This document shows positions 2,188-22,070 of a stretch of 24,051 nt of DNA, piece after piece. Source of the stretch: a virus; the IMG/VR virus record IMGVR_UViG_3300040801_002547, positions 1-24,051 of that record; one strand, given 5' to 3'. The notes beneath the pieces are model-generated. The model was not told the DNA's origin. It did no database searches and was given only the letters and a program-made list of their open reading frames with translations. Every line of letters begins with the position of its first letter. Position 1 is the stretch's first letter. Position numbers and translations under genes: made by a program.

Positions 2188-4233
2188 TCATTTCAAATGC
2201 GTTAATATATCGACCAGATTCTTGCTATGCGCAATTTCTCTGTCAGTTCTTGTTTTATTCATTTCAGCCTCATAGCGCATCGTCTGTGTTTCAACATCAA
2301 CGCCCATTTGTACCCGTTCATTTTCAAGTTCAGCCATTTCCATTTCCATATCATGCTGCATCTTAGCGTATTTCAATTGAAGTTCAGCTTTCTTTAACTG
2401 TAATTCTTGCGCTTGCAATTGCTGTTGCTGCTCTTGTGCAATTTGCTGAGGATCGGGTTGCTGCTCTTTTTGCTCGATTGGCTTACCTGTTTTACCTGCT
2501 TGAATAATTTCAGGCGGTACAAGCGTTTTAAGTCTATTTTTAATTTCTATATTATTAGATAATGGCAGATTATCAGCATACAAATCAGCAATGATGTTAA
2601 ATAATTGAGGATTAGCCTGCATCACCATTTGCAGCGATTCCATGGCTTGTTGCTTTTGACCCTCAAAACTTGCACCCGGCATCAACTTAACTTGGAAACT
2701 GCCTTTCGTGATATCATTCTCAACCATTTGCCCATATTCATCCATTTGCCGATTGATAACAATTTCTTGCAATCCCTCATCAGGCATCATCAATTTAAGT
2801 ACGCGCTCGGTATCATACACCCTCGGAATCATCTCGTTAATAATCATGCCACCCGCTGCAATGGCGCGATTGATTGACGTAAAGACAGGATAAGTTGTAT
2901 AGCTCCCCTGCCGTGTTCTTGCGTCAACCGCAGCGCCTGACACTTCCTGACCTTGTTGACCAAGCCTTGCTGCATACAGTCCAGTGCTTGTGTAAATGTC
3001 ATTCATTGCTCGTTCATATTGCGTTAACAATGATTGTGACAACTCTGGCGGCCTTAATTGCTGTGGAATCTGTCCAGAATCCACCTCATCATAAAATAAT
3101 GCCCCATTAATTGAACCGGGATCGCGCCAAATCTGTTGAGTATCCGGTGCGCGTGCGTTGCCACGCGGCATGATGAATTGATCCCACCTGGACACTTTAA
3201 GCATATAAGCCGATTGCGTACCCAAATAGTTAAGATATCTCTGAGAATCAAGCGCATCTTGAAAGAACGATTTACAAACCTGTTTACCTGATTTGTCATA
3301 ATATGAATTCTGATCGACAAAAACAACGGGCAACAAATCAGAAGGAAACTCACCATCATCAACAATGTAATCGCCAATAATTCGATAATGTTTTACTTTA
3401 AATCTATCCAGCGAACGTGAGTCTTCAATCCGAACCGGCATACCGTTATATATGTAATAATTACCCAGCTCTTCATCTTCTATTAACTCCATTTCTAACT
3501 CATCAAACTCTTTTTGAGTTAGCGTGTCGCCCGTTGATAGTTGTATCAATGTCTCTTTGTAATATTCGCGTTTATAATAATCAAAAACAGTAATCGCATC
3601 ATCATCAGCAAAGTTTAAATTTTCATATTCTGACGGCATGTTTTCAGTTTGTTCATCAACTTTTTTACCGTAAAGCGCGCGCACTTTCTTACGTGACATG
3701 CGCTCACTGGTTCCCGCAAACATACCATCGATTTTAGAATCATCAGCTGCTGATGCATCCCAAAAACAGCGCGTTGGATCTTTAACAGAATGCATTGTAA
3801 TTTCTTGATCGAAACTTCTATCATTTGCATAACGGGTTGAAAATGAGTAAGCACCAAAACCACCAATAATCGCCTGTTTCGCAGCATTTTGATATACACG
3901 TTTAGCATCGCTACCCAGCGCAATATCTTTAACTAAAACCGCGCGAATGTTAGCAACCTGCTCACTGCATGAACTGCTCGGAACAACTTCCAGCTGTGGC
4001 GTATTTTGCTGCTGTTCACCCAACAAACTATTAGCAAGCGGTGCCAGCTTATTGAACACTAAGGCTTGTTTTTTATAAGTCGCAAGCAATTGAACCTCGT
4101 CATCAGTCCACATTTGACCCATGACGAACTCAGTAAAAAAATGGTAATTATCTATGTTGCGCTTGAAATAACCGCGCCACGCTTCATAATTTTTTCGGCA
4201 CTCACTTGCTAGTTTTTCGTCACGTTTAGCCAT
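2188..4233 (-). CDS. Portal protein, P22 gp1-like
   Basis: A 681-residue portal (P22 gp1 is about 725), the dodecameric ring through which DNA is packaged and ejected. The N-terminus (MAKRDEKLASECRKNYEAW) is helical and followed by a WTDDEVQ segment and the NKLAPLANSLLGEQQQN stretch typical of this family (NR/NKI...VNxxxGxxxQN). The central part contains the RxxDPxxCFWDASA-like motif (KDPTRCFWDASAADDS) and a wing/stem region with SGAAVDAR at about 450. The last 110 residues are a Gln/Glu-rich coiled coil, which in P22 forms the barrel inside the head. It lies 33 bp upstream of the scaffold gene and 34 bp after the large terminase gene, so it is part of the same operon. Start ATG at 4233 with a short AGGA site. 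Confidence 0.9.
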   Translation of the reverse strand: MAKRDEKLASECRKNYEAWRGYFKRNIDNYHFFTEFVMGQMWTDDEVQLLATYKKQALVFNKLAPLANSLLGEQQQNTPQLEVVPSSSCSEQVANIRAVLVKDIALGSDAKRVYQNAAKQAIIGGFGAYSFSTRYANDRSFDQEITMHSVKDPTRCFWDASAADDSKIDGMFAGTSERMSRKKVRALYGKKVDEQTENMPSEYENLNFADDDAITVFDYYKREYYKETLIQLSTGDTLTQKEFDELEMELIEDEELGNYYIYNGMPVRIEDSRSLDRFKVKHYRIIGDYIVDDGEFPSDLLPVVFVDQNSYYDKSGKQVCKSFFQDALDSQRYLNYLGTQSAYMLKVSRWDQFIMPRGNARAPDTQQIWRDPGSINGALFYDEVDSGQIPQQLRPPELSQSLLTQYERAMNDIYTSTGLYAARLGQQGQEVSGAAVDARTRQGSYTTYPVFTSINRAIAAGGMIINEMIPRVYDTERVLKLMMPDEGLQEIVINRQMDEYGQMVENDITKGSFQVKLMPGASFEGQKQQAMESLQMVMQANPQLFNIIADLYADNLPLSNNIEIKNRLKTLVPPEIIQAGKTGKPIEQKEQQPDPQQIAQEQQQQLQAQELQLKKAELQLKYAKMQHDMEMEMAELENERVQMGVDVETQTMRYEAEMNKTRTDREIAHSKNLVDILTHLK

Positions 4234-4267: not shown

Positions 4268-6850
4268 TTAAGTGAAACCCGTTCTTGCAGCAACAGGCGC
4301 AGTATTCACGGGAATTTGATTTTGTGTGATTTGTGCGCCAAACGAAAATGTTAACGCTAAACTATCAGCGCAATCAGGTGAACGAATATTGCGCTTCTTA
4401 GCATCTTCTTTTGACTCAATCAACAACTGACCTGTACTTTTATATTTATAACTCAAGCCACATAAATCAGATTGCAAGTCTTCACTATCCGGTATATCAA
4501 CACCTAAATCATTCAAAAACCAGTCGCGCATCGTTGCCCATATTTCTGCCCGTGTATTTGCATAGCGTTCAGTGTCGCGCGGCTTCTTAGCAACGTTGAC
4601 ACCAACTACAACATGTTGGTAACCCATTTCATGAAGTCTATCAACAACGCCAGCCCCAATGCCAATGGAGTCAATAAACACTTTTTGCGGCGACTCTTTG
4701 TCGATAATCATTTTAACTTTTCCGGCTAACTCCATAGTATCAATACCCTGCCACGTCTGTAAGTCAAACGCTTTTCGCCCACGTCTTCTAATGATTGCGC
4801 TTCTATCTGTTCCTGATCGGGCAGGATCGACACCGATTACTAACCCCGCATCCGTTTCAACAGTGTTTGCCCGCGCACGCTCAACCGCTTGTTTATTGAT
4901 AAAGCTATCAGTAATTGAATTAAGAAAAGCGTCGTCATCAGTGCAATTGTGAACCAATATACCTTGCGCATCAAAAACATGATTTTCATTATCTATAGTT
5001 AAGTCATAAACATACTGCATTCCATTTTCTTTTATCTGTACAACCTTATCTTTAAATTCAATGTTGTTTGCTTTCCTTCCAACATTTTCTTGAGTATTCC
5101 ATGTATTAACTCTTGATTGTTTTCTATAACTTATAAATCCTATTTCATCCATGAATTTAATTGCTTCATTCTTTCTAAGAGCTAATTCATTGCCCGTATA
5201 AGTATGTTTATCATTACCTGCAATTTTTTGTGCATGTGTTCTTTTACAAGTTATTCCAAACCCCAAAAGCAACAACTGTATATCTTTTGCAAAACATTCA
5301 TACTTTGAAAAAAATTTAACCGTTGGATATTTTTTTCCTACAAAACCATCCGCATCAAATAATCCGGATAAAAAACTTTTAATCACATTTTTTGGACTTT
5401 TCCAAATGCAATCAGGAACACATACTTTTCTTTTTGTGTAATTTTTTTTAGTATGATCAACTATCTCGATAATACCTAGTTGTAAAAATATTTCTTTTAA
5501 ATTTATAGATCCGCATCTTAATTCTGTTCCATTGTTAGAAATTTTTCTTTCTATTAATTGCAAACCAAAAAGCTTATGAGTTAAATTTCTAACTTTTTTT
5601 ATTGAATTAATATCATTTTTAGTAAATGCAAAAGATAAAACATTTCCACTGTAACTGCCATCACCCATAAAATAACCTAAAAATAATCCTAATTCTTCTG
5701 TTATTTGAATTTTAAGATCTAAACATGGAAATGTTTTTAATTTTACAGTATGTTGTTTTTTTGAAAAATTAGGAATGGATAAATCTATAAAACTATTAAT
5801 AGATTTTGACGCTTCAACAAAATTATTGTTTGTTGAAATTCTATGATCTAAAGTACATTTTAAAGTATAACCCATATATGTTTGAAGTTCTATTGTCTGT
5901 TTATAACCAGACATCCAAGCTTTTTTTATACAACCGGTATTTGCAGACATACCGGCTTTAACTTCACAAATTGGCAAAATACCTGAGTCTGTACCTACAC
6001 GCTGGTCACCCACAATACACGGGTATTCTTGTGAGAAACTTCTGGCTTTCTGATCGTCATCACCATCCATATCTGAAAGCTTAATTCTACGCCATGCCAA
6101 ATGCTTTGTTGTTAAGCCATTGGCACCATATAACTGTAACCACGTCTGTTCCTCAAGCGTCGGCACAAAGCCATCATCATTCGCTGTGTATTCATCTTGC
6201 CAAAACCATGGCACAAATATAGCTTGCCAGTGCGATTGCCCTGACTTTGCAGCTTGCCAGTCTCGATAAAAGTCATTTGTTACGCCGTTAGCTGTCGACT
6301 CTTTTATCTTTTCAGTGCCCTCGATGTCAGCAACCGTGTTTTCAAGACCTTTTTTAATGTCAGCAGTGTTTTGATAAAAAGCATATTCTGATAAGTGTAG
6401 CAGCTGGTTTGTTTGCGAGCGACCAACGTCACCGCTTCCAGCCGTACCCACACGATAGCCTGACTCTAACGGCTTGCCAAACGTTAAGCGATTGTGACTG
6501 TCTTGTGTCGCTTTCGGAGCAAGCCCATCGGGCAAATTCTTGTAATAGCGTTTTGTGATATCAAACAAGTTGCGCGTTGCGTCGCTGTGATGCGTTAAGA
6601 TAAAAGCTTGTGTGCCTGGCTTAGTTAAAACTTGATGTAAAAAGCGAGATTGTACATAAGTTGAACATCCTTGTTGCCTTCCTTTCAGAATCAGCGCCCT
6701 AACCATGCCCGTTGCTTTGCGCTGTTCTTCAAGTCTCTGATGGATATACAATTGAGCGCGATTAAGCTTAAACGGCACTAATCGACCGGACTTGTCAGCG
6801 ATATGATAAAAAGAAGGGGCAAATTGAAGTAAGTCCAAAACGTCAATCAT
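4268..6850 (-). CDS. Terminase large subunit interrupted by an intein
   Basis: This protein of 860 residues is predicted to splice to 502, close to P22 gp2 (499). N-extein (residues 1-277) is the packaging ATPase, with the P-loop-like LKGRQQGCST (55-64), a Walker-B-like LLHLSE (150-155) and the coupling motif STANG (185-189). C-extein (636-860) is the RNase-H-like nuclease, with VIGVDPARSGTD (671-682), KVFIDSIGIG (723-732) and SPDCADSLAL (824-833) supplying the acidic metal ligands. The intein breaks the conserved QEYP/C junction and Cys636 is the +1 residue. The start overlaps the small terminase stop by 8 bp, implying translational coupling. Without splicing the two enzyme domains would be separated by 358 residues, so packaging probably depends on splicing. 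Confidence 0.95.
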   Translation of the reverse strand: MIDVLDLLQFAPSFYHIADKSGRLVPFKLNRAQLYIHQRLEEQRKATGMVRALILKGRQQGCSTYVQSRFLHQVLTKPGTQAFILTHHSDATRNLFDITKRYYKNLPDGLAPKATQDSHNRLTFGKPLESGYRVGTAGSGDVGRSQTNQLLHLSEYAFYQNTADIKKGLENTVADIEGTEKIKESTANGVTNDFYRDWQAAKSGQSHWQAIFVPWFWQDEYTANDDGFVPTLEEQTWLQLYGANGLTTKHLAWRRIKLSDMDGDDDQKARSFSQEYPCIVGDQRVGTDSGILPICEVKAGMSANTGCIKKAWMSGYKQTIELQTYMGYTLKCTLDHRISTNNNFVEASKSINSFIDLSIPNFSKKQHTVKLKTFPCLDLKIQITEELGLFLGYFMGDGSYSGNVLSFAFTKNDINSIKKVRNLTHKLFGLQLIERKISNNGTELRCGSINLKEIFLQLGIIEIVDHTKKNYTKRKVCVPDCIWKSPKNVIKSFLSGLFDADGFVGKKYPTVKFFSKYECFAKDIQLLLLGFGITCKRTHAQKIAGNDKHTYTGNELALRKNEAIKFMDEIGFISYRKQSRVNTWNTQENVGRKANNIEFKDKVVQIKENGMQYVYDLTIDNENHVFDAQGILVHNCTDDDAFLNSITDSFINKQAVERARANTVETDAGLVIGVDPARSGTDRSAIIRRRGRKAFDLQTWQGIDTMELAGKVKMIIDKESPQKVFIDSIGIGAGVVDRLHEMGYQHVVVGVNVAKKPRDTERYANTRAEIWATMRDWFLNDLGVDIPDSEDLQSDLCGLSYKYKSTGQLLIESKEDAKKRNIRSPDCADSLALTFSFGAQITQNQIPVNTAPVAARTGFT
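4946..6019 (-). other. Intein with LAGLIDADG homing endonuclease inside terminase
   Basis: This in-frame element covers precursor residues 278-635 (358 residues). Splice block A begins with Cys278 (CIVGDQRVGTDSG). Block B has TLDH (333-336). Block F/G is HVFDAQGILVHN followed by Cys636, giving the standard terminal His-Asn/Cys. Between them lie two dodecapeptide motifs, LGYFMGDGS (391-399, Asp397) and LSGLFDADG (494-502, Asp501), of a LAGLIDADG endonuclease. All key splice and nuclease residues are present, so both activities look intact. DNA of the intein is visibly more AT-rich than the flanking extein; for example 5401-5460 has about 27% G+C against about 55% at 6421-6480. This supports recent arrival. 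Confidence 0.95.
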
Positions 6851-11166: not shown

Positions 11167-11400
11167 CTATTCCCGTTCATTGAAAATTGTGTCCGATTTC
11201 GATTGGGCACTTTTAATATAGATTTCACCACAATTCATACAAACCATGTCATTATTTTTATCCTCACAATAGTTATCGATAAGGGATTTGATTTTTAATC
11301 TAAGATCAAATGTAATATCAGGGTTTACACAACAAGACCTATAAGCCTCATTAATGCAATTTTTAATATTTATTAACTCGTCTTTGGTAAAGTCATTCAT
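11167..11400 (-). CDS. Small cysteine-motif protein, paralogue A (MNDFTKDEL family)
   Basis: This 77-residue protein starts at ATG 11400 ([16 protein letters not shown]). A GTG four codons earlier is also open but has no better ribosome site. It is clearly related to the gene at 12079-12285: both begin MNDFTKDEL, share KIKS(L/M)IDNYCE and end with a CxxC pair (VCMNC here). The cysteines suggest a small metal-binding knuckle. Its start overlaps the preceding gene by 8 bp. The function is unknown; proteins of this kind occur as several copies in phage early regions. Confidence 0.8.
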   Translation of the reverse strand: MNDFTKDELINIKNCINEAYRSCCVNPDITFDLRLKIKSLIDNYCEDKNNDMVCMNCGEIYIKSAQSKSDTIFNERE

Positions 11401-11572
11401 CTGGCGTACCACATATCATTTCCTTAAGTTTCTCTTTCGCATAACCCAATCGATGCGTACGGTTATCATAATCGATTAGCTTAGGTTTCCAATCAAGATA
11501 CCAGTCGCCAATGATGGCGCATATTTCGTTTTGTTGATCCTCTGTTAAACTTTCGATTCCTTTATGTTTCAT
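11393..11572 (-). CDS. 59-residue hypothetical protein
   Basis: A frame from ATG 11572 (MKHKGIESLTEDQQNEICAI) to TGA 11393 is chained by an ATGA overlap to the gene before and an 8-bp overlap to the gene after. This leaves no gap and strongly supports it being real. The product is mixed-charge and helical, with a Trp-Tyr-Leu-Asp-Trp stretch in the middle and LGYAKEKLKEMICGTPDE at the end. No domain is recognised. Confidence 0.75.
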   Translation of the reverse strand: MKHKGIESLTEDQQNEICAIIGDWYLDWKPKLIDYDNRTHRLGYAKEKLKEMICGTPDE

Positions 11573-11736
11573 TCCACGTCCTTTAATTCTTCTGATTGTT
11601 GTGAGTTTATTCTGTCTAGTAATTGCAATACTTGATACGACTGAATTTCACCAACGAGGCCTTTTTCTCTTAAACTTTCAGCGTAAGTACGGGCAATCGT
11701 CATTAAGGACATAATTTGTTTTTCACTGATTTTCAT
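11569..11736 (-). CDS. 55-residue conserved phage protein (MKISEKQ type)
   Basis: The start at 11736 (MKISEKQIMSLMTIARTYAE) overlaps the upstream microprotein stop as ATGA; a longer frame opening at 11781 is less likely because it covers that microprotein out of frame. The helical pattern and the ending LLDRINSQQSEEL match a small helical phage protein often seen in early regions, with no known role. Its TGA overlaps the next ATG. Confidence 0.75.
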   Translation of the reverse strand: MKISEKQIMSLMTIARTYAESLREKGLVGEIQSYQVLQLLDRINSQQSEELKDVE

Positions 11737-11807
11737 TTCCAAGCACACCACACGACAACGCAAAATATAACGGTTAAACATATTTCATGTATTGCTGAAT
11801 CACTCAT
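11733..11807 (-). CDS. 24-residue membrane microprotein
   Basis: A frame from ATG 11807 to TGA 11733 encodes MSDSAIHEICLTVIFCVVVW then CAWK: a short polar start, one hydrophobic helix with three Cys and two Trp, and a basic end. An unusually strong ribosome site, AGGGGGT, sits 3-4 nt before the ATG. Its stop overlaps the next start (ATGA), so it fits exactly into the operon chain. A single-pass inner-membrane peptide of unknown function. Confidence 0.65.
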   Translation of the reverse strand: MSDSAIHEICLTVIFCVVVWCAWK

Positions 11808-11815
11808 TATACCCC

Positions 11816-12082
11816 CTAAAAACTGCGTGTTGATTTGCATTTCAAAAGCTCAAAACTTGGTTGCATTTCATATCCAGCCATTAAAATGGAATCTTCATTA
11901 TATTCTAAATCTGTTTTTTTCCATGGCGTAGATTGAAACCCTCCGGTTTTTGTGATGAAAACATTATGTTCATCAATTGTTCTATCATCATTCACTCGCA
12001 AATAATGAACTTTGCTTTTAAAGTTTTGACCAAAAAATTTATCGCTTTTATCACACTGTGTTTCTTTTATGTATATTTTCAT
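11816..12082 (-). CDS. 88-residue hypothetical protein
   Basis: The frame begins MKIYIKETQCDKSDKFFGQN and reads as a soluble, mainly beta protein (KVHYLRVNDDRTIDEHNVFI, then TKTGGFQSTPWKKTDLEY). The start is preceded by GAAGGGGA and overlaps the upstream stop as ATGA. No family is recognised. It lies between the paralogue-B gene and the 24-residue membrane peptide. Confidence 0.75.
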   Translation of the reverse strand: MKIYIKETQCDKSDKFFGQNFKSKVHYLRVNDDRTIDEHNVFITKTGGFQSTPWKKTDLEYNEDSILMAGYEMQPSFELLKCKSTRSF

Positions 12083-12285
12083 AAGTCCCCTTCAATTACT
12101 TTTTTACAATCTAAACAAACGGTAATACCAAGTTTTGTATAAATCTCTTCATGCTCGCAATAGTTATCGATCATAGATTTTATTTTATTTTCCAGTGCTT
12201 GCTGCGATACTGTATGGTGAGCAATATATACACCATCCAAAACGGATAACAAGCACTTTAATTCATCTTTTGTAAAATCATTCAT
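12079..12285 (-). CDS. Small cysteine-motif protein, paralogue B (MNDFTKDEL family)
   Basis: This 68-residue relative of the product of 11167-11400 shares MNDFTKDEL at the start, KIKSMIDNYCEH in the middle, and a C-terminal VCLDCKK pair of cysteines. The two differ in the middle, so this is an old duplication within the operon or two separate acquisitions. It is joined by ATGA overlaps on both sides. The function is unknown; a small zinc knuckle is plausible. Confidence 0.85.
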   Translation of the reverse strand: MNDFTKDELKCLLSVLDGVYIAHHTVSQQALENKIKSMIDNYCEHEEIYTKLGITVCLDCKKVIEGDL

Positions 12286-12617
12286 TTATTCACCCCACAT
12301 AAACCCTTAACATATTTCCATTTTGCCTCTGTACTATGCCCATCCCAATTTGGTTCTATTTCTTTTAAATCACCCATATCAAAATTATCCGGCACGTGAA
12401 AAGTTATTTTCCCATAATCTATTGATATAACTCTCGCCCATCCTTTATACTCACCATGAACATACCAGCCACAAGAAGGCTTGATTCCTCTGGCTGCATG
12501 ACTGATGTTGATTTGTAATGCAAGTGTCAACGCAAGCATGTTCCGTTCCCAGTACGCTAGATTTTTCGTGTCTTCTAGCGACATTTGTTCATTCCAGCCT
12601 TTTATATAATCATTCAT
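12282..12617 (-). CDS. 111-residue hypothetical protein
   Basis: The start is set at ATG 12617 ([20 protein letters not shown]), which has GAGG at good distance and overlaps the previous gene by 8 bp; an opening four codons earlier lacks this. An N-terminal helical half ([19 protein letters not shown]) is followed by a beta-rich half with many Trp/Gly ([20 protein letters not shown]) and a final [22 protein letters not shown]. No family is recognised. Confidence 0.75.
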
Positions 12618-12861
12618 TAACAGCCTCATAAGTCATTTCAAATATATCCGCTTTACATGGATAAATTTCGCCCTTCACCCCTTGAATAATATAATCTCCT
12701 TTTATTGCTTGCATATCTCCCTCAAGTGTTTTTATCCAGCATGAGTCATCAGGGTAAGTAACAATATCATTAGATGTAACTTTATCTTGAAACCAGTCTG
12801 GCCGTGGATCAATGTTATATATAAACGCATCAATTATGATTGGGTTTTTACGGTATTTCAT
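12610..12861 (-). CDS. Conserved phage protein of the [11 protein letters not shown] type
   Basis: This 83-residue protein has the pattern of a widespread small phage family: start [12 protein letters not shown], then [20 protein letters not shown] and [20 protein letters not shown]. Members are single-domain, beta-rich and lack a known function. The stop overlaps the next gene, and the start overlaps the previous stop as ATGA. The family recognition is from memory of the motif. Confidence 0.85.
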
Positions 12862-13406
12862 CTATGAAACTCTCCGCATTTTTTGCATTTATGTATTTCG
12901 GTCAGCCCCCCATCATTACTGAAAGGATGGCCATCACTTGCATGCTCACATTCCATCGACACATCATCAGAACATGTCGATATTGCATCTTTTTTTAGAC
13001 AAGTCCAGTATTTGATTTGTGTTTCAATCAAGTCTTCACGTGATTTGAATATATCTTTATCCGTATAAATAACATCTGCATGACCTGCAAGTGTATAAGT
13101 GCCATACTCAGAAGTCTTTATAGTTGTTTTATGAAAACCACCGAGGTTTCCTAGAACCCAGACCTTATCACCTTTATCATACTTAGGCTTTGGCTGCGTA
13201 AGTTGGCGTAGTTTGTCGATAAGCTCATTTATGCTATATAATTTATACTCACCACCTTCAATAAAAAAAGAATAATCATCATGAAAAGAGCCATCCGCAT
13301 AAGCTATAAAATTACTTTGTAATGTAACTAATTCCATACTTTTATTTTCTCTAATTACTTGTTTAAGTAGCTCATGTGCTTCTTTAAGCTTGTTATAATC
13401 AAACAT
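12858..13406 (-). CDS. 182-residue hypothetical protein with C-terminal zinc knuckle
   Basis: Start taken at ATG 13406 ([20 protein letters not shown]); the codon before is a GTG also in frame. A helical N-terminus is followed by an SH3-like stretch ([20 protein letters not shown]), often seen in small phage proteins. The C-terminus has [10 protein letters not shown] and [11 protein letters not shown], together four Cys/His candidates for one zinc ion. Its start shares one base with the stop of the 32-residue membrane peptide. The function is unknown. Confidence 0.8.
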
Positions 13407-13504
13407 CACTTACCCCATATTGCTTGACAAGTCATACCTACAAAAAAACATATAGCCAAAACGCTAAATGCAATACAAAACCATTTTGCGTCATTGTCTT
13501 TCAT
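13406..13504 (-). CDS. 32-residue membrane microprotein
   Basis: A frame from ATG 13504 to TGA 13406 encodes MKDNDAKWFCIAFSVLAICF then FVGMTCQAIWGK: a charged start, a single hydrophobic helix of about 18 residues, and a short polar end. AAAGG lies 8 nt before the ATG. It begins inside the end of the preceding gene and its stop overlaps the next start by one base, filling an otherwise empty gap. Likely a single-pass membrane peptide; the role is unknown. Confidence 0.65.
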   Translation of the reverse strand: MKDNDAKWFCIAFSVLAICFFVGMTCQAIWGK

Positions 13505-13694
13505 TTTTAGACCTTTCCTTAATCCTATCAATAGCCATCATCATGGCATTTAAGACACGATCTTCAAGATAAATCTTGTTATCGCAATGACTGTCTCGAT
13601 GGTCGCCAGTTCTTAAAATGATATGCTCTGGCGTGTGTTCTAAGTACACGCCATCTCCTAAGTAAACATGGTTTGCTTTTTCTTCTGGTGTCAT
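13491..13694 (-). CDS. 67-residue conserved phage protein (VYLGDGVY type)
   Basis: The motif HVYLGDGVYLEHTPEHIILR, followed by KIYLEDRVLNAMMMAIDRI, matches a common small phage family in which a beta hairpin is followed by a short helix. No function is established. Joined by an ATGA overlap to the gene before. Its Cys/His content (RDSHCDN) is not an obvious metal site. Confidence 0.85.
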   Translation of the reverse strand: MTPEEKANHVYLGDGVYLEHTPEHIILRTGDHRDSHCDNKIYLEDRVLNAMMMAIDRIKERSKNERQ

Positions 13695-13852
13695 TCTTCA
13701 AAATCCTCCCATATCCTTTTTAAAATAGATTCATATTGCGCTTTCATATTTGAAATCATGTCGTATTGGGCGTTATTATTTATCGCATGCCAAAATAACC
13801 CGTCCAGATTTCCATAAAAAAACATCATGTCATCACGTAATTTTTGATTCAT
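13691..13852 (-). CDS. 53-residue helical protein
   Basis: A frame from ATG 13852 (MNQKLRDDMMFFYGNLDGLF) to TGA 13691 continues with WHAINNNAQYDMISNMKAQY and ESILKRIWEDFEE. It looks all-helical and is linked by a 20-bp overlap with the preceding gene and an ATGA overlap with the next. No relative is recognised. The chain of overlaps is the main evidence that it is expressed. Confidence 0.7.
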   Translation of the reverse strand: MNQKLRDDMMFFYGNLDGLFWHAINNNAQYDMISNMKAQYESILKRIWEDFEE

Positions 13853-14264
13853 TTTTATAAACCCCTTTAACAGCCCACATTACACACTCTTCAAGTTTAG
13901 TTATGGCCAGGGATTTCTCCCTACCATTGTCAATCATATTTAAATGCTCCTCTAAACTTTCAGCCAGCGACTTAATTTCATTGGCAAAGTCTCTTAAACT
14001 TTCATCATCGCTATATTCTTTTTTAAATGTATCTGTCATTTTTTTTGTATCCAAATATGCTAAATATTTTGTTAATTTATGGCACTCTAACTTGTGCTGC
14101 TCCATAGCAAGTGTTTCTTCATCCCAATCGCATTCAAACAATATTTTTTCAGGACTATGGACATTATATACAATGGTGTTGAATAGATACTTTCGGATAT
14201 CAAAATCGGTTAAAACTACATGCGTGCCGATTTTTGTTATTAATGGATATTTGTTAATAGTCAT
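13833..14264 (-). CDS. Acb2/Tad1-hairpin-domain protein, probable cyclic-nucleotide sponge
   Basis: This 143-residue protein is probably an immune-signal sponge. The C-terminal 55-60 residues, from about SLRDFANEIKSLAESLEEHL through DNGREKSLAITKLEECVMWA to VKGVYKN, show the helical-hairpin signature GREKSLAxTKLEExxxWAxxxI. This signature marks the Acb2/Tad1 hairpin family (anti-CBASS 2 and Thoeris anti-defence 1). Those proteins form hexamers that trap cyclic di- and trinucleotides or gcADPR made by CBASS and Thoeris. The first 80 residues (MTINKYPLITKIGTHVVLTD onward) are an extra, unrecognised domain with a helical end. The ATG at 14264 has AGAGGAA. It is expressed early from the Cro-side promoter, which suits counter-defence. 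Confidence 0.75.
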   Translation of the reverse strand: MTINKYPLITKIGTHVVLTDFDIRKYLFNTIVYNVHSPEKILFECDWDEETLAMEQHKLECHKLTKYLAYLDTKKMTDTFKKEYSDDESLRDFANEIKSLAESLEEHLNMIDNGREKSLAITKLEECVMWAVKGVYKNESKIT

Positions 14265-14287
14265 AATTCCTCTATCTCGTCTCTTTT

Positions 14288-14500
14288 TTATCGATTAACC
14301 CTTTTAGCTTCATAATACGCCCGGCACTCATCTTCACTTTTAAAAACCTGCTCTTTTCCTATTTTGATTTCATCATCATCAGTATCGCCAATTAATGACA
14401 ATCGGCCTTGATGATACCCAAATCCTTTAATAACAAAATTACCGACAATCCCTCGGCCATCCATATACCAAACCATATCTCCTACTTTATGTTTTTTCAT
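14288..14500 (-). CDS. Small SH3-like hypothetical protein
   Basis: This 70-residue protein is read from ATG 14500 (MKKHKVGDMVWYMDGRGIVG), which has AAGGTGAG upstream; a GTG three codons earlier is possible. KVGDMVWY, then GNFVIKGFGYHQGRLSLIGD and a final FKSEDECRAYYEAKR, is the layout of many small phage proteins with a barrel core and a helical end. No function is known. Confidence 0.75.
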   Translation of the reverse strand: MKKHKVGDMVWYMDGRGIVGNFVIKGFGYHQGRLSLIGDTDDDEIKIGKEQVFKSEDECRAYYEAKRVNR

Positions 14501-14557
14501 TTTACTCACCTTTATAAAATTTTGTTTTTTTCAAATAATTACAACAATATCGCTTTA

Positions 14558-14812
14558 TCAAGAGCGATCAGTATACTCATAATTTTTCGGCAAAAATTCA
14601 TCAATTACAGACATCCCAATTAATATTGCATCACTAACATTTGATAAGCCGCCCAAATCATAAACACATTCGCAATACGAACATTTTACACGAACCTCAA
14701 GCGTTCTATTATCTACGTTGTCAATAAACTCTTTGTTAATGACGATTTTGTAATTTTTATACATATATGATTCTTGTTCTTGCCAGTGATTCGGCTGGTT
14801 ATTTTTTGTCAT
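14558..14812 (-). CDS. 84-residue hypothetical protein after cro
   Basis: The frame starts MTKNNQPNHWQEQESYMYKN and overlaps the end of the Cro-like gene by 14 bp; a start 16 codons later (MYKNYKIVINKEF) is possible. A central KCSYCECVYD offers three cysteines, perhaps part of a metal site. The remainder is a short beta/alpha pattern ending VIDEFLPKNYEYTDRS. It is the second gene of the early minus-strand operon. No family is recognised. Confidence 0.65.
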   Translation of the reverse strand: MTKNNQPNHWQEQESYMYKNYKIVINKEFIDNVDNRTLEVRVKCSYCECVYDLGGLSNVSDAILIGMSVIDEFLPKNYEYTDRS

Positions 14813-14975
14813 CAGATTTAAATTTCCCCTGTGTTAATAGTTCAATTTTCTTTTGTGTGTTTGCCGGTATAAAACCATCTTTTTTCCACCGATAAACTGT
14901 ATTGTTGTGAAAACCCAATTCATTGGCCAGCCGGTAACAGGTTTTATATTCTTTTAATAAATCATTAATTGTCAT
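14799..14975 (-). CDS. cro: Cro-like helix-turn-helix repressor
   Basis: This 58-residue protein starts MTINDLLKEYKTCYRLANEL and continues GFHNNTVYRWKKDGFIPANT with QKKIELLTQGK, the fold of P22/DicC-type Cro: a short HTH (residues about 14-30) with recognition helix NNTVYRWKK, then a closing helix. The GAGGG ribosome site is 7 nt before the ATG at 14975. It is the first gene of the early minus-strand operon and lies next to a 16-bp inverted repeat that overlaps its own -10 box and that of the opposing operon. It very likely binds there. The matching CI-type repressor is not in the window. The symbol is by type, not homology search. Confidence 0.85.
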   Translation of the reverse strand: MTINDLLKEYKTCYRLANELGFHNNTVYRWKKDGFIPANTQKKIELLTQGKFKSDDKK

Positions 14976-21682: not shown

Positions 21683-21802
21683 TTATTTTTTCTTTTTCAC
21701 TTTTTCAGGAAGTTTTTTACCCTTTGGCGTTTTACTTTCAAACTCTTTGGCAATCTTGGGTTTGTTTGCGTGTAAGTACGCCCTTTGTTTTTTACTTTTC
21801 AT
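21683..21802 (-). CDS. 39-residue basic microprotein
   Basis: A frame from ATG 21802 to TAA 21683 encodes MKSKKQRAYLHANKPKIAKE then FESKTPKGKKLPEKVKKKK, nearly half Lys/Arg. The pattern KQRAYLHANKPKIA..FE..TP.GKKLPE is the small basic phage protein found beside structural genes. It begins inside the end of the Tad2-like gene. Likely binds DNA or acidic proteins in the particle; not proven. Confidence 0.8.
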   Translation of the reverse strand: MKSKKQRAYLHANKPKIAKEFESKTPKGKKLPEKVKKKK

Positions 21803-22070
21803 CGGCATTGTCTAAAATCTCCCAATCCTCAGCCATTAAATCGCCCATTGAAGACAACCAGACACCGACAGAACCGTCTTGATATTTCATGTCTATGTGA
21901 GGGCGATATTTAATTCTTGTACCTAAATCAAAAATACTCAATAATGGCTCACGGTTAACATCAAATTCACTACCGTTAACTAAAAATACAAACTGGTCTT
22001 CACCATTCCAGCCAGCACGCTTTAAAAGTTTGCCGTTCTTAATTTCTTCTAATGCTTCACTAAAATTCAT
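21792..22070 (-). CDS. Tad2-like protein (DUF2829), probable Thoeris counter-defence
   Basis: This 92-residue protein has the complete DUF2829 signature: MNFSEALEEIKNGKLLKRAG, WNGEDQFVFLVNGS, IKYRPHIDMKYQDGSVGVWL and the ending MAEDWEILDN. The family includes Tad2, which binds the gcADPR signal of Thoeris and prevents effector activation. The normal length is about 90 residues. Here it sits in the late tail/lysis operon rather than early. Starting MNF behind an AGGA site. Whether it binds 1''-2' or 1''-3' gcADPR, or another nucleotide, cannot be told. Confidence 0.88.
   Translation of the reverse strand: MNFSEALEEIKNGKLLKRAGWNGEDQFVFLVNGSEFDVNREPLLSIFDLGTRIKYRPHIDMKYQDGSVGVWLSSMGDLMAEDWEILDNADEK

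Follow-up and report, generated by a model that had tools for sequence, protein, structure and literature searches.

Acb2 is described, in the passages of two reviews that bear on it (PMC12043709; PMC10419184), as a homohexamer that binds cyclic di- and trinucleotides, and the same passages report sequestration of cyclic nucleotides for both Acb2 and Tad1. The window (the whole stretch of viral DNA analyzed here, which is the full 24,051 bases of its record) contains on the minus strand an open frame for 143 amino acids, from an ATG at 14264 to a stop at 13833, in which a hairpin of this family follows an N-terminal part that is unlike anything searched. The initial annotation of 13833-14264 gave no strand; the plus strand across the interval has many stops, and the GREKSLAxTKLEE..WA-type motifs quoted there are found in the minus-strand translation. 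The observation of an open frame with a hairpin and an unrecognized N-terminal part is confirmed, and the border falls between residues 75 and 76.

Membership of the Acb2/Tad1 hairpin family, proposed earlier from the C-terminal signature, is borne out by a profile search, in which residues 87-135 (13860-14006, minus strand) match PF24729 (Acb2_Tad1_hairpin) at 57.1 bits against a cut-off of 27 (E 2e-15). A profile built from 25 relatives retrieves solved Tad1 chains at E 5.9e-11, "Acb2 homolog 43" at 1e-8, and T4 Vs.4 at 2.2e-4; its values for Acb2 p26 (0.10 and 0.15) are not significant. Among the 25 aligned relatives, positions A120, K123, E125, E126, and W130 of the second helix are invariant, and R115 and E116 are kept in at least 90%. 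NCBIfam and PADLOC gave nothing useful, and a plasmid search gave two weak matches; among gammaproteobacterial genomes, the window protein finds a match in 1 of 369 (E 1e-4) and PF24729 in 6 of 274.

The likeness extends beyond the hairpin itself: residues 76-143 (13836-14039, minus strand) align end to end with whole free-standing proteins of about 60-80 amino acids. In the relative at locus L001, which is 55% identical across the aligned part, the start methionine falls on Met76, and its first residues, MTDVFRKEYK, compare with MTDTFKKEYS here. The hairpin and the short stretch preceding it thus make up one complete Acb2-like unit, which leaves residues 1-75 as the extra part. The N-terminal part had been given as 80 residues lying outside the hairpin; its position outside the hairpin and its lack of recognition hold, but it is 75 residues long, the whole Acb2-like unit beginning at Met76.

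By family, the frame would most likely act as a cyclic-nucleotide sponge of the Acb2 type. Its C-terminal unit would assemble as a hexamer and soak up CBASS cyclic di- and trinucleotides during infection; with these ligands bound, CBASS effectors would stay off. It is very improbable that the hairpin is not a sponge in this branch of the family, with the widespread short members serving another phage role common to this protein. That function is assigned by homology only would allow such a role, as would the position of a relative in Sinorhizobium phage Aussie, which sits between head-to-tail adaptor and stopper genes, and we know of no functional tests of close relatives of residues 76-143; but the profile matches solved, ligand-bound Acb2 and Tad1 chains, a Tad2-like gene is present in the same phage, and of 77 distinct hairpin loci, 3 have a Tad2-like gene immediately next to the hairpin gene or overlapping it, compared with none of 55 other loci.

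The Tad2-like gene of the window (21792-22070, minus strand) encodes 92 amino acids and matches PF11195 at 79.0 bits against a cut-off of 25, and solved Tad2 chains at 1.7e-17. The phage, which has a P22-like portal and an Sf6-like small terminase, therefore carries members of two sponge families and probably faces more than one defence based on nucleotide signals. Whether or not the 143-residue protein is made, the pairing of an Acb2-type hairpin with a Tad2-like protein suggests that the hosts use several such defences. Tad2-like and hairpin genes occur together at L062 (1789-2192), L008 (675-1246), and L077 (1929-2665), as well as at L149 (669-1240); in Tenacibaculum phage Gundel_1, the hairpin gene is followed after 18 bases by a gene of DUF2829, an earlier name for the Tad2 family. 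It is possible that such neighbours are paired sponge cassettes.

A scan with the portal identifies related phages (L137-L139) at 45% identity; a scan with the primase found no phage relatives, and no match to the window protein was found in the records of L137 and L138. The large terminase of the window (4268-6850, minus strand; 860 amino acids) contains an intein-like insert, with LAGLIDADG_3 at residues 489-571 (56.6 bits) and an Intein_splicing match exactly at the cut-off (35.8); the large terminase of L137 (7320-9641; 773 amino acids) by eye also seems to bear an intein, at a different, earlier position. Two further loci carry unusual hairpins. At 1926-2015 of L153, a phage that has a neighbour gene in common with the window cluster, a hairpin fragment, SQSREISLAMTNLEQSVMWAVKALY, lies in a short frame without the first helix and resembles a decayed Acb2-type gene. 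L051, an Eggerthellaceae metagenome-assembled genome, has three hairpin matches, and the hairpin near 3001-3234 is preceded by a cysteine/histidine-rich piece that weakly resembles HNH_3 (E 0.004-0.007, below the cut-off).

Residues 1-75 (14040-14264, minus strand) are coding, as are the residues that follow: the codon score of the N-terminal stretch is 0.146 bits per codon in frame versus at most -0.11 in each of the five other frames, and the chance of 85 stop-free codons is 0.0006 by Markov resampling and 0.002 from base composition. The description of this part as unrecognized agrees with the searches, none of which gave a credible match. Profile searches of Pfam and PHROGs returned nothing, as did tblastn against 50,697 phage records at E 10; the viral-contig scan gave two stretches, neither a relative, PDB sequences gave one chance-level match (E 0.35), and the fetched loci contain no relative. 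The pairing of residues 1-75 with a hairpin is absent among 43 relatives of the whole protein, and residues 1-75 as a free gene have no relative in viral contigs or phage records, both searches reaching close relatives only. A literature search found no description of a hairpin fusion with this N-terminal part. An SH3-like reading, which a K.G..V.L pattern might suggest, found no support in these results. Two neighbours on the minus strand (14288-14509 and 12858-13409) have in common the stretch GD.VW...IFKS.ED (z 4.3 against shuffles) and are possible paralogues; neither shows likeness to residues 1-75.

Two known sponge families were considered as the origin of residues 1-75. An origin from Tad2, tried because a Tad2-like gene occupies the matching place in L062, gave alignment scores not above those of shuffles. 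In the case of Tad1, residues 1-75 would be its N-terminal beta sheet diverged beyond recognition, and binding of gcADPR would be expected. The length (143 amino acids, compared with 142 for SBSphiJ7 Tad1), the order of the parts, and two short strands predicted at residues 9-12 and 15-18 are all in keeping with Tad1, but in profile comparison only the hairpin aligns, the score with the N-terminal part of Tad1 is matched by 93% and 99% of shuffles (for the Tad1 proteins of SBSphiJ7 and BSP38), and residues 76-90 match the short free proteins and not Tad1; a divergent Tad1 is accordingly held to be highly unlikely. Residues 1-75 would rather be an independent or passenger protein, and the most economical view is that they are an independent small early protein.

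AlphaFold2 with 73 sequences gives a mean pLDDT of 74.8 (38 from the single sequence). Helices 88-108 and 115-140 are predicted at about 96-98, with block means up to 98. A further helix, 49-78, with which the short helix of the hairpin family merges, has a pLDDT near 87 for residues 51-70 but of 65 for residues 71-80. In the stretch 1-40 the block means are 43-51, with values below 50 at residues 1-11, 20-30, and 38-40. As for an antiparallel four-stranded N-terminal sheet of the Tad1 type, the model of residues 1-47 is too poor to judge, and the sequence has no similarity to it. The sole match at E ≤ 0.001 in a viral structure library is a 69-residue "Acb2/Tad1 hairpin domain-containing protein" (3e-4). 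Foldseek found no match in the PDB at E ≤ 0.001, a search in which residues 1-80 were barely tested, and VIA-align against the PDB placed Acb2 chains at Z 6.2 amid unrelated helical pairs scoring up to 7.4; because helical pairs are common, fold searches of the PDB do not discriminate.

The two parts meet in a run of A's. The border reads ACA AAA AAA ATG ACA, with eight A's (14039-14046, minus strand) running into the Met76 codon, whose A is the last of the run. The record has one uninterrupted frame, which depends on this number: when run lengths of 6-10 were tried, only eight yielded 143 uninterrupted amino acids, and with seven the upstream frame ends after 75 amino acids at a TGA that overlaps the ATG of Met76 in a four-base ATGA (14036-14039, minus strand). 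The frame is best explained, with a confidence slightly above even, as two ancestral genes, one for a complete Acb2-type sponge (residues 76-143, a gene of its own in relatives) and one for a protein of residues 1-75 that is or recently was separate, the two frames being continuous because the border run has eight A's. The ancestral layout would most likely be an ATGA overlap. The PF24729 and solved-chain matches, the end-to-end alignment with free-standing relatives from Met76, the 69-residue hairpin protein as the one good viral structure match, and the run-length dependence argue for this explanation, as do three features of layout: in the minus-strand cluster at 11167-14975, 5 of 13 borders are four-base ATGA overlaps; the halves, at 75 and 68 amino acids, compare with cluster genes of mostly 53-88; and in L062 a free hairpin gene lies in an ATGA overlap with an upstream gene of 72 amino acids, the latter Tad2-like. 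Weak support comes from 14 of 77 hairpin genes that have an ATGA together with at least 40 open codons upstream, because 659 of 3986 ATGA sites in hairpin loci show the same upstream opening from any cause.

Other features of the border count against two genes, as does the absence of residues 1-75 as a free gene from the viral contigs and phage records searched. An ATGA arises easily by chance, requiring only an A after ATG, and A/T runs of at least eight are not rare in the window (14 observed, 11 expected). The ribosome-binding site of Met76 is poor, at -3.1 kcal/mol: the starts at the five ATGA borders range from -5.3 to -10.2, 7 of 37 genes are equally weak or weaker, and 38% of 627 minus-strand ATGs score equal to it or stronger. 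Met1, preceded by the Shine-Dalgarno-like AGAGGA (14268-14273, minus strand), has a better site at -5.2. This difference, together with the uninterrupted frame and a predicted helix (49-78) that spans the border, would fit a genuine two-domain sponge, a single protein of 143 amino acids in which the N-terminal part modifies the choice of ligand, the oligomer form, or the partner in the manner of the Tad1 N-terminal sheet; additions before the hairpin are also known from Tad1 and from loci L095 and L039. Such a protein is considered doubtful: the pair of parts lacks a second example among the 43 relatives and in the close relatives reached with residues 1-75, the sequence from Met76 onward is conserved as it is in the free proteins, which would not be expected of an old fusion, the join lies within the A run, and confidence in the spanning helix drops to 65 at residues 71-80.

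Homopolymers of at least eight are described as sites of transcriptional slippage in the relevant passages of one study (PMC3711429), and parts of another report that runs of nine and eleven A's are active in tssM genes (PMC4256274). Because poly-A runs of this length are described as slip sites, the border might reflect a mutation, a transcript switch, or a sequence error. If messages or ribosomes slipped on the eight A's, the joined protein would be made along with the 75-residue protein and a free Acb2-type sponge, and the run might act as a working switch through which one gene supplies two sponge forms that differ in ligand reach or location. The position of the run, with the neighbouring frame stopping at the next codon, would suit slippage, but similar runs lie elsewhere in the window, a run of eight is among the shortest described, and conservation gives no support, the join having no relative in the searched data; both slippage and its use as a switch are thus rated improbable. 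With two ancestral genes, the preferred reading, either the joined protein would really be made by the phage or the record would hold one A too many. The 143-residue protein may reflect a recent fusion, an error in the sequence, or slippage, or it may be a true two-domain sponge, and to speak of a fused domain is less secure than to speak of a hairpin with an unrecognized part. The interpretation in the initial annotation is partly supported: the hairpin family and the unrecognized N-terminal part hold, while a working fused domain that changes ligand choice or oligomer form would be one reading among these.

If the joined protein is real, it would be a further architecture, besides Tad1, that adds an N-terminal part to the Acb2 hairpin, and it would offer a way to test how N-terminal parts adjust ligand choice. 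Otherwise, the locus is a caution that apparent fusions at ATGA borders in A runs need checks at the level of reads.

The frequency of long hairpin proteins is easily overstated. At least 80 residues precede the motif in 15 of 90 distinct hairpin frames, a count that is too high because it takes the first start of each frame; among 14 loci checked, the frames of L031 and L073 contain well-formed starts further in, at the usual place (GGAGG and GAGGAG). Length can also mislead: in Streptomyces phage KimJongPhill, the hairpin protein reaches 134 residues with a C-terminal extension.

Compared with known systems, residues 76-143 resemble the free-standing Acb2-like proteins of PF24729 (for example those of L001, L002, and L062, T4 Vs.4 (PDB 7uq2), and Acb2 (PDB 8h2j)) in hairpin signature, length, and start, whereas the window protein has 75 extra residues in frame before the start methionine. 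Tad1 (SBSphiJ7 Tad1, CbTad1, and CmTad1) likewise consists of about 140 amino acids with a C-terminal hairpin and an N-terminal addition, but the N-terminal part of Tad1 from SBSphiJ7 or BSP38 does not align with residues 1-75. In L095 (zinc-ribbon-like, below the Pfam cut-off) and L039 (with cysteine pairs) the hairpin ends a longer frame that has no ATG start at the usual place, and these additions are short, cysteine-rich, and unrelated to residues 1-75. An addition before the hairpin is thus not new in kind, and the protein of the window, if truly joined, is one more and a different such addition.
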